A stretch of 64,000 nt of DNA from assembly GCF_017308015.1 (NCBI RefSeq), contig NZ_JAFKFW010000015.1:1-64000 (forward strand), written 5' to 3'. Position numbers and translations under genes: made by a program. This DNA is from Allobosea sp. (lineage in GTDB: Bacteria > Pseudomonadota > Alphaproteobacteria > Rhizobiales > Beijerinckiaceae). The notes below the pieces were generated by a model, which saw nothing but the letters and a program-made list of their open reading frames with translations, was not told the DNA's origin and ran no database searches. Each line of letters begins with the position of its first letter. Positions within the stretch are counted from its first letter, which is position 1. Below are positions 29,287 to 35,632 of this stretch, one piece after another.

Positions 29287-30465
29287 TCAGAGCAGCCCGC
29301 GCCCGGCGAGGTGGCGCATCAGATGCGAGGCGCCATAGGTCCAGGGCGCACATTCGTCGGTGCGCTTCATCCGGTTGACGAGGCTGCCGAGCTCGGGCGC
29401 GGCGATGGTGACGATGTCCCCGTATTTATGGGTGAAGCCACCGCCCGGCGCATCGCGATCCTTGATCGGCGCGAACATCGTGCCGAGGTAGAGCGCTGCC
29501 CCGTCCGGATACTGATGATGCGGGCCGATCATTTGCGCGGCCAGGTCGGCCGGGTCGCGACTGATCTTCGCGATCGAGGAAGAGCCCTCCAGCGTGAAGC
29601 CGTCCTCGCCCGCGACCGTCAGCGTCACGGTCGTCCTGCGGACATGATCGAGCGTGAAGCCGGCATCGAACAGGCGGATGAAGGGGCCGACGGCCGCGGC
29701 GGCGTTGTTGTCCTTGGCCTTGCCGAGCAGGAGCGCCGAGCGGCCCTCGACATCGCGCAGGTTGACGTCGTTGCCGAGCGTGGCGCCGACGATTGCGCCG
29801 GTCGAGGCGACGACCAGCACGATCTCGGGCTCGGGATTGTTCCAGCTCGAGGCCGGATGCAGGCCGGCATCCGCGCCGGTACCGACCGTCGACATCGGTG
29901 GGGCCTTGGTGAAGATCTCGGCATCCGGCCCGATGCCGACTTCGAGATACTGGCTCCAGGCGCCCTGCTTGATCAGCACCTCCTTGAGACGCATCGCCTC
30001 CGGCGAGCCGGGCTTCAGCTTGGAGAGATCATCGCCGATGAGCTTGCCGATTTCCGCGCGGATCGTCGCGGCGGCGGCCGGGTTGCCGCGCGCCTTCTCC
30101 TCGATCACGCGCTCCAGCATCGAGACCGCGAAGGTGACGCCGGCGGCCTTCACCGCCTGCAGATCGAGGGGCGAGAGGAGCCAGGGCCGCTTCGGATCGC
30201 GGCCGTCCACGGGCGTGTTTGCGAGAATGTCGGCGAGCGAGCCGATCGCCTCGCCGTCGGCGGCGCGCAGCGCGGCGGCCGGTTCGTGACTTTCGCAGAG
30301 ATCCCGGCTGGTCGGGAAACTCCTGGTCACGTCCACGACCTGCCCGCCGCGGAGCGTCACCACGGCCGGTCCGCCGATCTCGGGGCGCCAGACGCGGCCG
30401 GCGAGTGCGGCGGCATCGGCGTCTACCGGCAAGGTTGCGGTCGCGGAAAGATCGAGGCTGGGCAT
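29287..30465 (-). CDS. fumarylacetoacetate hydrolase family protein
   Basis: A 392-residue protein whose C-terminal half is an FAH fold. N-N-P-E-P-E-I-V-L-V and G-N-D-V-N-L-R-D supply the usual metal ligands, and G-T-G-A-D-A lies before them. The long N-terminal region (about 170 residues) resembles sugar-acid dehydratase members of the family more than FahA itself. So a 2-keto-3-deoxy sugar acid or similar oxo-acid is the likely substrate class (inference). GTG 30477 would add four residues. It is divergent from ugpB, with a shared 199-base control region. Confidence 0.78.
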   Translation of the reverse strand: MPSLDLSATATLPVDADAAALAGRVWRPEIGGPAVVTLRGGQVVDVTRSFPTSRDLCESHEPAAALRAADGEAIGSLADILANTPVDGRDPKRPWLLSPLDLQAVKAAGVTFAVSMLERVIEEKARGNPAAAATIRAEIGKLIGDDLSKLKPGSPEAMRLKEVLIKQGAWSQYLEVGIGPDAEIFTKAPPMSTVGTGADAGLHPASSWNNPEPEIVLVVASTGAIVGATLGNDVNLRDVEGRSALLLGKAKDNNAAAAVGPFIRLFDAGFTLDHVRRTTVTLTVAGEDGFTLEGSSSIAKISRDPADLAAQMIGPHHQYPDGAALYLGTMFAPIKDRDAPGGGFTHKYGDIVTIAAPELGSLVNRMKRTDECAPWTYGASHLMRHLAGRGLL

Positions 30466-30562
30466 GGCGGCATCCACGAAGCGGGTTCGGATAGGCTGAG
30501 CAGATCAGCCGGTTATGCGCGAATGTGCAAGCCGCCCCCAGACCATAGGCGGATTGCGCCGG

Positions 30563-30591
30563 CTGTCATCGATTTGTCATTGAAATGTCGC
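30563..30591 (+). promoter_or_regulatory. Pho box upstream of ugpB
   Basis: CTGTCAT-CGAT-TTGTCAT followed by TGAA-ATGTCGC: three 7-base units spaced every 11 bases, the tandem layout PhoB binds. The first two units match the consensus CTGTCAT at 7 and 6 of 7 positions. A possible -10 (TACATG, 30598-30603) follows at a suitable distance, so the box would replace the -35 as in known Pho promoters. The ugpB start codon is about 75 bases downstream. Confidence 0.85.
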
Positions 30592-30664: not shown

Positions 30665-31990
30665 ATGACCATCAAATCGCGCATCCTGATGTCGGTCGCG
30701 GCTTTTGCGCTCGCTGGCGCCTCGCCTGCCCTGGCGCAGACCGAGATCCAGTGGTGGCACGCGCTGACCGGCGCCAATAACGACGTTGTCGTCAAGCTCT
30801 CCGAGGACTTCAACGCCTCGCAGAAGGACTACAAGGTCGTACCCGTTTACAAGGGCTCCTATCCCGACACGCTGAATGCCGGCATCGCCGCCTTCCGTGC
30901 CGGCCAGGCCCCGCATATCCTGCAGGTCTTCGAGGTCGGCACCGGCACGATGATGTCGGCCAAGGGCGCGATCAAGCCGGTCCACGAGATCATGAAGGAA
31001 GCCGGCGAGAAGTTCGATCCGAACGCCTATCTGCCTGCGATCACCGGTTATTATTCGACGGCCAAGGGCGAGATGCTCTCGATGCCGTTCAACTCCTCGT
31101 CGATGGTGATGTGGTACAACAAGGACGCCTTCAAGAAGGCGGGCCTCGACCCGGCCAAGCCGCCGAAGACCTGGCCCGAGACCTTCGAGGCCGCCAAGAA
31201 GCTGAAGGCTGCCGGCTACGACAAGTGCGGCGTCTCGAACGCCTGGGCGACCTGGGCCAATATCGAGCAGTTCGGCGCTTGGCACAACATCGCGCTCTCG
31301 ACGAAGGTCAATGGCATGGCCGGTTTCGACGCCGTGCTGGAGTTCAACAAGAGCCCGGCTTTCCTGAAGCACTGGACCAACCTGGTCGAGCTGCAGAAGG
31401 ACAAGACCTATGACTATTCCGGCCGCACCAACAATGGCGAAGGCCGCTTCACCTCGGGCGAATGCCCGATCTTCCTGACCTCCTCGGGCTTCTTCGGCAA
31501 CGTCAGGGCGAACGCCAAGTTCGACTGGGGCAATGCGCCGATGCCGTATTATCCTGACGTGCAGGGCGCCCCGCAGAACTCGATCATCGGTGGCGCTTCG
31601 CTCTGGGTGATGGGTGGCAAGAAGGCCGACGAATACAAGGGTGTCGCGAAGTTCTTCACCTTCCTCTCGAATGTCGATCGTCAGGTGAAGCTGCATACCG
31701 AGTCGGGCTATCTGCCGATCACCAAGGCGGCCTACGAGAAGGTCAAGGAATCCGGCTTCTACAAGGACAAGCCCTATCTCGAGACCCCGATCCTGGAGCT
31801 GACCAACAAGGCTCCGACCGATAATTCGAAGGGCCTGCGCTATGGCAGCCTCGTCCAGATCCGCGACATCTGGTCGGAGGAGCTGGAGGCGGCGCTGAAC
31901 GGCCAGAAGTCGCCGCAGGCGGCGCTGGACGCGGCGGCCGAGCGCGGCAACCAGATGCTGCGCCAGTTCGAGCGTACCGCCGCCCGCTGA
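30665..31990 (+). CDS. ugpB: sn-glycerol-3-phosphate ABC transporter binding protein
   Basis: A 441-residue periplasmic binding protein with a signal peptide ending A-L-A-Q (about residue 25). It opens with I-Q-W-W-H-A-L-T-G and has [13 protein letters not shown], both typical of UgpB, which captures glycerol 3-phosphate and glycerophosphodiesters during phosphate shortage. AAGGGAG precedes ATG 30665. A Pho box upstream and the ugpA/E/C genes downstream support the assignment. A strong hairpin follows the stop codon. Confidence 0.93.
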
Positions 31991-32066: not shown

Positions 32067-32948
32067 ATGCAGAAGAACGCATACTTCAAGGGGCTGACGA
32101 TCCCCTTCCTGCTGCTTCTGCCGCAGCTCGCCATCACCGTCGTGTTCTTCTACTGGCCGGCGAGCCAGGCGGTCTGGCAGAGCTTCCTGCTCGAGGATGC
32201 CTTCGGTACATCGACGGAATTCGTCTGGTTCGAGAACTACCAGATGCTGTTCGCCGATCCCGGCTATCTGAAGGCCTTCGTCAATACGGTCATCTTCTCG
32301 ACCTTCGTCTGCGTGTTCTCGCTCTCGATTGCGCTGCTCTTCGCCGTGATGGCGGACCGGCAGATCCGCGGCGCCGAAATCTACAAGACCCTCCTGATCT
32401 GGCCCTATGCGGTGGCGCCTGCGATTGCCGGCGTGCTTTGGCTCTTCATGTTCGATCCTTCGCTCGGCATGCTGGCGCGCGGCCTGCAATCCCTAGGTAT
32501 TCCGTGGAATCCGCGCCTCAACGGCAACCATGCCATGCTGCTGGTCATCCTCGCGGCGACCTGGAAGCAGATCAGCTACAATTTCCTGTTCTTCCTCGCC
32601 GGCCTGCAGTCGATCCCGAAGAGCGTGATCGAGGCGGCCGTGATCGACGGCGCCCGGCCGATGCGCCGGTTCTGGACCATCGTCTTCCCGCTGCTCTCGC
32701 CGACGACCTTCTTCCTGCTCGTCGTCAACATCGTCTATGTCTTCTTCGACACCTTCGGCATCATCGACACCATGACCGGCGGCGGTCCCTCGGGCGAGAC
32801 CGAAACGCTGGTCTACAAGGTCTTCTCCGACGGCAAGGGCGGCTCCAATCTCGGCGGCTCGGCGGCGCAGTCGGTGCTGCTGCTGATCATGGTGATCGGC
32901 CTGACCGCGGTCCAGTTCCGCTTCATCGAGCGCAAGGTCAGCTACTGA
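32067..32948 (+). CDS. ugpA: sn-glycerol-3-phosphate ABC transporter permease UgpA
   Basis: A 293-residue inner-membrane permease with six helices. The cytoplasmic coupling loop reads [10 protein letters not shown] near residue 190, the standard EAA motif that docks on UgpC. N-terminal [15 protein letters not shown] matches UgpA. The stop overlaps the next start by one base (TGATG), but that next gene is the creatininase, not ugpE. Confidence 0.93.
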
Positions 32949-33697
32949 TGGCCTCCGTGCTCTGGATGGATCTCACCGCCGAGGAACTGCGCGCCAAGGC
33001 GGCGACGGACGCCATCGTCGTCCTGCCCGTCGCCTCCATCGAACAGCACGGCCCGCATCTGCCCGTCGGCGTGGACACGATCCTGTGCAGCGGCGTCTGC
33101 AAGGCTGCGGCCGAGCGTGCCGGTGATGTCGATGTGGTGGTCGCGCCCACGCTCTGGTGCGGCATGGCCGAGCATCACATGGCTTTCGGCGGCACCTTCA
33201 CCTTCGACATCCCGACCTATCGCGCCGTGCTGCTCTCCTTCCTCAAGAGCATTGAGCGCCACGGTTTCCATCGCGTGCTGATCGTCAACGGCCATGGCGG
33301 CAACATTGCCGCGCTCACGGCCTTCCTGCCGGATTTTGCGGGCGAGACGAGCCTCCATGTCGAGGTGACGACCTATTTCATGCTGGCGCAGGACGCATTC
33401 CCGCCCTTGCTGCAAGACCAGCAGGGCGTCCAGCATGCCTGCGAGGTCGAGACCTCGATGATGATGGTGCTGGCGCCGGGCTCGGTCCGCGAGCCGCGTC
33501 TTCCGGAAGCCTTCGGCGCGCTGGATCGTGCCCCGCGCCGGCAGGTCGTCTCGCGCCACCGCTCCTTCCGGGAGATGACCGATACCGGGGTGGTCGGCGA
33601 CGCCCGCCGCGCCACACCTGAGAAGGGCCGGGCCTGCCTCGATGCCTGCGCCGACGCGCTGGCCGGATTGCTGCGCGAGATGGGGAGGGCCGCCTGA
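32948..33697 (+). CDS. creatininase family amidohydrolase embedded in the ugp operon
   Basis: A 249-residue protein of the creatininase fold, whose members are metal-dependent amidohydrolases or deformylases (creatininase, the archaeal ArfB deformylase, MftE peptidase). The metal set is complete: E32 and H34 in S-I-E-Q-H-G-P-H, D43 in G-V-D, the N-G-H-G-G-N motif at 114-119, and a later Glu in H-A-C-E-V-E-T. It lies between ugpA and ugpE, its start overlapping the ugpA stop by one base and its stop overlapping the ugpE start by one base. It is thus made with the transporter and, by the Pho box, on phosphate shortage. The substrate is not known; hydrolysis of an amide-bearing glycerophospho compound is one possibility. 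Confidence 0.88.
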   Translation: MASVLWMDLTAEELRAKAATDAIVVLPVASIEQHGPHLPVGVDTILCSGVCKAAAERAGDVDVVVAPTLWCGMAEHHMAFGGTFTFDIPTYRAVLLSFLKSIERHGFHRVLIVNGHGGNIAALTAFLPDFAGETSLHVEVTTYFMLAQDAFPPLLQDQQGVQHACEVETSMMMVLAPGSVREPRLPEAFGALDRAPRRQVVSRHRSFREMTDTGVVGDARRATPEKGRACLDACADALAGLLREMGRAA

Positions 33698-34545
33698 TGG
33701 TCGAGGACCGCCGCCTGGGCGACCTGATCGCCTATGTCATCCTGACGATCGGCGTGCTGATCGTCGCCTTCCCTGTCTGGCTGACCTTCGTCGCCTCGAC
33801 CTGGGACGCGGCGACCGTGATCAATGGCCAGATGCCGCTCTATCCCGGGCCGTATTTCCTGGAGAATTACAACCGCATCCTCTTCGTCGGCACGTCGGGC
33901 ACGACGCGCGAGCCGGTCATCGGGATGATGCTGAACTCCTTCGTCATGGCAATGGCGATCGCGCTCGGAAAGATCTTCATCTCCGTACTCTCGGCCTATG
34001 CGGTGGTCTATTACCGCTTTCCGTTCCGCATGGCGGCATTCTGGATCATCTTCGTCACGCTGATGCTCCCGGTCGAGGTCCGCATCTTCCCGACCTTCAA
34101 GATCGTGTCCGATCTCAACATGCTCGACACCTATCAGGGTCTTGCCGTGCCCCTGATCGCCTCGGCGACGGGCACGCTGCTCTTCCGGCAATTCTTCATG
34201 ACGATCCCCGACGAGTTGCTCGAGGCCTCCAAGATCGACGGCGCCGGTCCGTTCAGGTTCTTCAAGGACACGCTGATCCCGCTCTCGATGACGACGATCG
34301 CGGCACTCTTCGTCATCCAGTTCATCTATGGCTGGAACCAGTATCTCTGGCCGCTGCTGGTGACGACGAAGGACTCGATGCAGACCATCGTCATCGCCAT
34401 CAAGAAGATGATCGTCACCGCCGACGCCCTGACGGAATGGCAGCTCGCGATGGCCACGGCCATGCTGGCGATGCTCCCGCCCGTCCTCGTCGTCATCGCC
34501 ATGCAGAGGCTCTTCGTGAAGGGCCTGGTCGAAACCGAGAAGTAA
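33697..34545 (+). CDS. ugpE: sn-glycerol-3-phosphate ABC transporter permease UgpE
   Basis: A 282-residue permease with six helices, partner of UgpA. The EAA loop reads [10 protein letters not shown] near residue 180, and the C-terminal half has [11 protein letters not shown], a hallmark of UgpE/MalG-type subunits. It begins at the last base of the creatininase stop codon; ugpC follows after seven bases. Confidence 0.93.
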
Positions 34546-34552
34546 TCCGCGA

Positions 34553-35632
34553 ATGGCCCAGGTCACTCTCAGCAACGTCAAGAAGGTCTATGCCGGCGGC
34601 GTCGAAGCCGTGAAGGGCGTCTCCTTCGACATTCCCGATGGCGGCTTCTGCGTGTTGGTCGGCCCCTCCGGCTGCGGCAAGTCCACGCTGCTGCGCATGG
34701 TCGCCGGTCTCGAGACGATTTCGTCCGGTGAGGTCGCGATCGGCAATCGCGTCGTCAACGAGATCGAGCCGGCCGACCGCGACATCGCCATGGTGTTCCA
34801 GAATTATGCGCTCTACCCGCATATGAACATCTACGACAACATGGCCTATGGCCTGCGCAACCGCGGCACGCCCAAGGACGAGATCGACAAGCGCGTGAAG
34901 GAAGCCGCCCGCATCCTCGCGATCGAGCCCTTCCTTGAGCGCCGGCCGCGCCAGCTCTCCGGCGGCCAGCGCCAGCGCGTCGCCATGGGCCGCGCCATCG
35001 TGCGCAAGCCGCAGGTCTTCCTGTTCGACGAGCCGCTCTCGAACCTCGACGCCAAGCTGCGCGTCCAGATGCGCGTCGAGATCAAGAAGCTCCAGCGCGC
35101 GCTCGGCGTCACCGCGATCTACGTCACCCATGATCAGGTCGAGGCGATGACGCTCTCCGACAAGCTGGTCGTGATGAATGCCGGCCAGGTCGAGCAGATC
35201 GGCCTGCCGGCCGAGGTCTACCGCAAGCCGGCGAGCAAGTTCGTCGCAACCTTCATCGGCTCGCCTCCGATGAACATCCTGCCCGGTGCGGTCGATGGCC
35301 ACGGCATCGTCGCGCTCGGCGATGCCATCATCGAGGTCCGCGACCTGCGCGAGGATCTGGCGGCGCAGGCGCCGGTCGAGATCGGCCTGCGTCCCGAGGA
35401 TGTCGAGATCGCCTCGGAAGGGCAGGCGGGCTCGCTGCCCTTCGACGTCGAGTTCATCGAGGAACTGGGCGCCACACAGCTCTTCCACGGCAAGCTGTCG
35501 GGTCACCCCTTCGTGATGCAGGCGGCAACCGGCGAAGTCGCGGCACAGGAAGGCCGGCTCTGGATCACCGTCGATCCCGACAAGGTCCACGTCTTCGATC
35601 CGAAGAGCGGGGCGCGGCTGGGGAAGGGCTGA
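34553..35632 (+). CDS. ugpC: sn-glycerol-3-phosphate ABC transporter ATPase
   Basis: A 359-residue ATPase. The nucleotide-binding domain has G-P-S-G-C-G-K-S-T (Walker A, near 37), L-S-G-G-Q-R-Q-R-V (signature, near 135), [11 protein letters not shown] (Walker B and D-loop) and T-H-D-Q-V-E (switch). The C-terminal 110 residues form the TOBE/OB regulatory region (I-G-S-P-P-M-N onward) of the MalK/UgpC class. Last gene of the operon; a palindromic repeat follows. Confidence 0.94.

Follow-up and report, generated by a model that had tools for sequence, protein, structure and literature searches.

A creatininase-family gene lies between ugpA and ugpE in the glycerol-3-phosphate importer operon of Bosea and some other Hyphomicrobiales

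The ugp operon in the window (the whole 64,000-nucleotide stretch of DNA that was analysed) carries a gene for a creatininase-family putative metal hydrolase of 249 amino acids, here called CRN, in the order ugpB-ugpA-CRN-ugpE-ugpC. The genomic facts about this locus are firm. CRN is best explained as a probably old accessory gene of a glycerol-phosphate importer operon, present in Bosea and in some other Hyphomicrobiales. Operon structure and a PHO box tie the gene to an importer for which the ligand is understood, and this narrows the search for the CRN substrate. To our knowledge, a substrate has been established for few members of the creatininase family.

All five genes are on the forward strand, and the four Ugp proteins each pass an NCBIfam equivalog or subfamily cut-off. 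These are the glycerol-3-phosphate binding protein UgpB (30665..31990; NF008211, 529.7 bits against a cut-off of 411), the permeases UgpA (32067..32948; NF007852, 367.1 against 335) and UgpE (33697..34545; NF008210, 385.8 against 297), and the ATPase UgpC (34553..35632; NF008653, 542.5 against 432). CRN (32948..33697) is a complete reading frame with no internal stop. Its start codon ATG (32948-32950) overlaps the ugpA stop TGA (32946-32948) by one base in a TGATG at 32946..32950, and its own stop TGA (33695-33697) overlaps the ugpE start ATG (33697-33699) in the same way at 33695..33699. With a score of 223.5 bits for the Creatininase profile PF02633 (gathering cut-off 31.3), these coordinates confirm the first-pass annotation, in which a creatininase-fold gene stands between ugpA and ugpE and overlaps each of them by one base. 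Among 44 distinct loci with the ugpA-CRN-ugpE order, counted after removal of 12 duplicate loci and of L224 and L225, the one-base overlap is the same at the CRN/ugpE junction in 40 and at the ugpA/CRN junction in 31. The arrangement and its kept overlaps are more than chance. The gene is also under purifying selection, with a median pairwise dN/dS of 0.17 across 13 close relatives (0.10-0.13 for the ugp genes). Divergent to ugpB, and with a common upstream region, lies an FAA-hydrolase-like gene (29287-30477, reverse strand; 22.6 bits, Pfam cut-off 23.9), which is also seen in the CRN-less Bosea loci L171-L176.

The importer itself resembles characterized Ugp systems. UgpB aligns over its full length with UgpB of Phaeobacter (9lff) and of E. 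coli (4aq4). The accessible part of PMC12718374 describes nine residues that hold G1P or G3P in the Phaeobacter protein and ties its small glycerol-phosphate pocket to two Trp residues. All nine contacts are kept in the window (Y66, E90, S145, W194, W197, S273, G310, Y349, and R400), as mapped by hand on the alignment with the letters verified. The likeness to UgpBAEC(Q) of E. coli and UgpBAEC of Phaeobacter thus comprises four subunits, nine UgpB ligand residues, and a PHO box, whereas the window differs by the hydrolase gene between ugpA and ugpE and by the absence of ugpQ from the operon; the genome has two GDPD genes, both on other contigs.

The arrangement is conserved and lineage-restricted. 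In a draw of 67 genomes from the genus, CRN is matched in 46 (E <= 1e-85) and UgpE in 65 (E <= 1e-80). From match coordinates, ugpE lies directly 3' of CRN in 43 of the 46 (43/67 of the genus), at a distance of about 180 bases in one and of no more than about 30 in the others. The three other CRN genomes (G040, G041, and G043) have the gene beside TAXI-TRAP genes. All 30 genus loci that were read, the window included, are ugpA-CRN-ugpE, and named matches at 84-94% identity are records of Bosea or of unclassified Rhizobiales/Hyphomicrobiales. The order is also that of B. thiooxidans DSM 9653 (L072). In wider draws, with limits of E <= 1e-55 for CRN and E <= 1e-75 for UgpE, CRN directly precedes ugpE in 18 of the 103 UgpE genomes of the family (248 drawn) and in 5 of the 171 of the order (397 drawn). 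At class level, CRN is matched (E <= 1e-55) in 14 of 385 genomes, with 41-50% identity in those that do not belong to the family, and the plasmid-borne relatives (45 records) are all below 60%. The locus is not unique to its strain, an outcome that would have told against the first-pass interpretation; the order occurs beyond the strain and the genus, but at these limits the low family and order counts mean that it is not general in Hyphomicrobiales.

A PHO box of three 7-mers at 11-base spacing, CTGTCAT-N4-TTGTCAT-N4-ATGTCGC, precedes ugpB (30563..30591, forward strand). In E. coli, CTGTCAT is the most conserved motif of the box, originally defined as two 7-mers with 4-base spacing, according to the accessible part of PMC4415409. 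Exact matches to TGTCATNNNNNTGTCAT number 3 in the 4.89 Mb genome, and 15 sites have at most one mismatch; the reversed-pattern control gives 0. By reading of the sequence, without a family search, the exact sites precede the pstS-pstC-pstA-pstB-phoU-phoB genes, the ugpB of the window, and a MarR-like gene (where the site is double), and one-mismatch sites precede an apparent phosphonate-type ABC importer and a PhoX-like phosphatase gene. Behind seven of the 13 sites inspected out of 15 (that of the window and 12 in ten regions), no phosphate-related gene was recognised. A triple PHO-box-like repeat at L198 1580-1607 (G000:C12:27579-27606) stands ahead of an apparent MarR-type regulator gene, outside the usual phosphate genes.

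Most ugp-CRN operons carry such a box. After removal of 12 duplicate loci, a simple PHO-box score reaches 11.5 ahead of 39 of 45 such operons versus 5 of the 353 further upstream regions taken from these loci, a comparison that is not blind since score and threshold were chosen after the box of the window had been seen. The six operons under the threshold are L095, L096, L097, L102, L107, and L111; L108 is counted as lacking a box, but its other strand scores 12.0, facing ugpB. Ahead of CRN outside ugp operons, none of 47 loci has a box at the same threshold. The kept order, the overlaps, and the common PHO box bear out the earlier view that CRN belongs to the ugp operon, and for the window the box makes Pho regulation a prediction at the level of sequence.

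The putative metal site of CRN is nearly, not fully, that of creatininase. The protein has the creatininase fold, and in a fold search no family beyond the creatininases was prominent. E32, H34, D43, and H116 of CRN align with creatininase E34, H36, D45, and H120, which we take to be metal ligands together with a fifth, E122. The four CRN residues are invariant in all 88 aligned rows, window included (seven further distant rows were excluded). The fifth position is G118 in CRN, within a GHGGN motif identical in 3no4, so that the first-pass description of a complete metal site stands for four of the five ligand counterparts and fails at E122. By eye, no signal peptide is apparent at the N-terminus.

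The history of the gene was followed in two trees. In a tree of 95 CRN relatives, from which L120, L121, L178, L179, and L180, all distant at under 35% identity, and 12 duplicate loci were dropped, 67 rows form one group with full support, which divides into 9 rows (support 97) with HyuA/HyuB-like neighbours and 58 rows (91, not starred) that include the window. CRN adjoins ugp genes in 47 of these 58 rows versus 0 of the 37 others; among called neighbours, neither UgpA nor UgpE appears in any of the 37. Gene calls came from a simple codon-score script checked on the window only, and it missed CRN in L138, L156, L159, and L166, where tblastn finds CRN but nothing that matches Ugp. The ugp contexts of the 58-row branch are ugpA-CRN-ugpE (42 rows), ugpA-ugpE-CRN (2), ugpA-ugpA-CRN-ugpE (1), CRN divergent to ugpB (1), and ugpA-CRN with no UgpE match downstream (1); L102 reads ugpB-ugpA-CRN, and the 6 kb that follow contain no UgpE match. 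The other contexts are glpK (2 rows), fsa (5), TAXI (3), and a frame-broken second copy in G018 (1). That copy (L166 7242-7972) consists of two overlapping frames, pieces of 74% and 55% identity, with no Ugp match nearby, and looks broken.

In a tree of UgpA plus UgpE with 64 rows, CRN lies between the two permease genes in 43 rows and is absent from 21, where L107 and L111 are scored as absent since their CRN follows ugpE. Presence changes 8 times, against a mean of 17.7 in shuffles, and at least 5 of the changes are forced by well supported branches. Among the 22 genus genomes with UgpE and without CRN before ugpE, a bare TGATG overlap joins ugpA to ugpE in 12, another accessory gene stands alone at the junction in 4, and the 6 other junctions span 37 to 558 bases, two of them in a more distant ugp operon and one with a weak accessory-gene match. 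We read this as a probable old insertion followed by repeated clean losses, though some of the changes may be gains by exchange. On these trees, CRN is dispensable.

Two further kinds of insertion occur at the junction. A second accessory gene, of 147-176 amino acids, lies before CRN or replaces it in several relatives (L065 5462-5989; L181 6286-6816; L174 3634-4077; L126 7154-7567). The longer forms of its product have an apparent signal peptide, and the protein exceeds no Pfam cut-off and is matched by no NCBIfam model. Dispersed-repeat-like insertions of about 140-170 bases stand between ugpA and CRN (L077 5859-6000; L119 5847-6000; L080 5829-6000) or after CRN (L096 6745-6915).

The function that we favour for CRN, tentatively and as something quite possible that we would still not call probable, is that of a cytosolic metal amidohydrolase, induced through Pho, which would cleave a C-N bond in some minor cargo of Ugp. 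Phosphate starvation would lead PhoB to induce the whole ugp-CRN operon. Ribosomes that reach the end of ugpA may reinitiate at CRN and again at ugpE, so that enzyme and permeases would be made together. CRN would stay in the cytosol, and its target would be an amide, a formamide, or a cyclic amide, either of a minor compound brought in by UgpBAEC or of something derived from that compound. Hydrolysis would release an amine or acid fragment and leave the glycerol-phosphate portion to metabolism. Transport itself would presumably not require CRN. Should the link hold, the range of Ugp operons would extend beyond plain glycerol phosphates, and a single imported molecule may be a source of both nitrogen and phosphorus for some bacteria.

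Several observations speak for cargo-linked hydrolysis: the order and its overlaps, the PHO box (39/45), the ugp neighbours (47/58 vs 0/37), the intact UgpB contacts, the dN/dS of 0.17, and G3P-gene neighbours where CRN has left the junction between ugpA and ugpE. The five loci of the last kind have CRN after ugpE (L107 and L111), divergent to ugpB (L108), or beside a glycerol kinase gene (L101 and L106, with GlpK of L106 over its cut-off). Partnership with importers also recurs for the other three creatininase-family genes found in the genome; all four adjoin ABC importer genes, of the Ugp (window), NMT1, SBP_bac_8, and SBP_bac_5 types, which is a pattern and not a test. Near CRN relatives, the transport-like proteins match SBP_bac_3, SBP_bac_8, Peripla_BP_6, DctP, NMT1_3, or MFS, the ten profiled having been picked for their transport-like appearance; no importer was recognised near the relative in L131 or L134. 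A family precedent by analogy is BrbF of Rhizobiales, a formamidase that is homologous to creatininase and was originally annotated on that basis; according to the accessible part of PMC9478397, it deformylates a phosphorylated pyrimidine, a riboflavin precursor. A creatininase homolog can thus, on that account, act on a phosphorylated formamide.

Against cargo-linked hydrolysis, Ugp persists without CRN, as the repeated changes of presence show, and 6 of 45 ugp-CRN operons have no box at threshold. Relatives of the same branch stand beside fsa (5 rows) and TAXI-TRAP genes (3 rows), with no obvious link to G3P. The conserved positions of CRN are nearly all common to relatives beside fsa, TAXI-TRAP, or hydantoinase/formamidase-like genes, and this, together with the box count of 0/47 outside ugp, means that the CRN reaction may not concern phosphate. 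The first-pass proposal of an imported glycerophospho substrate with an amide or formyl group is accordingly a hypothesis, and both results count against a phosphate-specific substrate.

These points also feed a rival explanation that is possible and rather doubtful, namely that the amide cut by CRN has no relation to Ugp cargo, that the ugp operon merely provides expression under starvation, and that the overlaps are ordinary operon packing. The shared conserved positions and the missing boxes suit it, as does the repeated loss of CRN; so do the non-ugp neighbours, which include HyuA/HyuB-like and FmdA/AmdA-family genes and TAXI-TRAP, MFS, and TRAP transporters. A gene lodged in the operon for its expression alone fits less well with the persistence of CRN in ugp among relatives as low as about 61% identity, and with the five loci off the junction that still lie by ugp or glpK genes. 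The hydantoinase-like setting is seen in L143-L151 and L117 (one genus of another family), where HyuA/HyuB-like genes, so named by reading, are divergent to the CRN relative and a 315-aa gene is convergent to it. HyuB is not visible at the contig edge of L145, and TAXI-TRAP genes come next in L143, L144, L149, and L117. The 315-aa gene of L117 belongs to the FmdA/AmdA family (104.3 bits), and on the formamidase equivalog model its product scores no more than 72.3 bits (cut-off 500).

A bolder form of cargo-linked hydrolysis would have CRN and Ugp act together to scavenge N-acylated organophosphates and render them harmless. Fosmidomycin bears an N-formyl group. This, with a literature excerpt that links fosmidomycin resistance to the glycerol-3-phosphate transporter, prompted the idea that phosphate-starved cells might import amide or N-formyl/N-acetyl look-alikes of glycerol phosphate, natural phosphonate antimetabolites included, and that stripping in the cytosol might yield phosphorus and nitrogen and remove toxicity. 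We regard it as a long shot; if true, a creatininase-fold hydrolase paired with an importer of matching cargo would be a general principle in a poorly charted family.

Imidazolone rings formed by methylglyoxal on guanidines resemble creatinine, and CRN might accordingly be a repair enzyme for damage from glycerol-phosphate and triose-phosphate flux, for example one that opens such rings. The ugp, glpK, and fsa neighbours all concern C3 metabolism, as this improbable explanation would have it. The hyu and TAXI contexts, however, are unsuited to it. The fsa gene was also rejected as a functional partner of CRN; it lies next to a priA-like gene, so its adjacency to CRN is likely chance synteny.

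The known family identities jointly take up only a very small share of the probability. NCBIfam matches four named activities in the family, and by its curated cut-offs CRN, as judged from its sequence, is a creatininase-family protein yet not creatininase, MftE, IolN, or ArfB. The top score among these models is that of the mycofactocin maturation peptidase MftE (TIGR03964, 119.3 bits), but it falls under the equivalog cut-off of 172, and CRN is encoded with ugp, not mft genes; IolN is further off (NF041098, 72.9 bits against 245). A second riboflavin formamidase, BrbF- or ArfB-like and placed in ugp, has the Rhizobiales precedent of BrbF in its favour and is nevertheless very improbable. The ArfB model gives 26.2 bits against 180 (NF033501), and CRN adjoins ugpA and ugpE rather than the MarR and CobW pair reported for BrbF in Rhizobiaceae and Brucellaceae; CRN is set apart from BrbF by these neighbours as described, not by sequence. 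In the accessible part of PMC9478397, two more distant BrbF homologs failed to complement. That CRN is a true creatininase (EC 3.5.2.10) feeding creatine use is scarcely credible, the same fold and family notwithstanding, given 109 bits against an equivalog cut-off of 235 (TIGR04448) and differences from the Pseudomonas putida enzyme (1j2t, 1q3k) at E122 (G118), W154 (F144), and W174 (a gap), all positions that presumably have roles in creatininase.

The earlier statement that no creatininase-ugp link has been described agrees with a search of open-licence PMC papers, phosphate starvation and ugpB contexts included, in which none of the matches listed described such a link. In their accessible parts, PMC6742649 names UgpB in its reference list only, PMC3023750 is a mycofactocin paper that matches the creatininase family, and PMC12797532 reports two creatininase genes of Methylobacterium extorquens that rise under methanol stress and are assigned to creatinine degradation.

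Another Bosea creatininase-family gene (C16, P0006), matched in 90 of 179 genomes, was considered as BrbF but could not be identified as such, with no MarR/CobW pair recognised in the eight loci opened. Three of the eight have no usable gene call at the match, and in L230, L239, L241, and L244 a neighbour reads as an amidohydrolase. Within the clade of G000:C16 relatives (L239, L241, and L244), the gene follows the amidohydrolase-like gene on the same strand, by reading.
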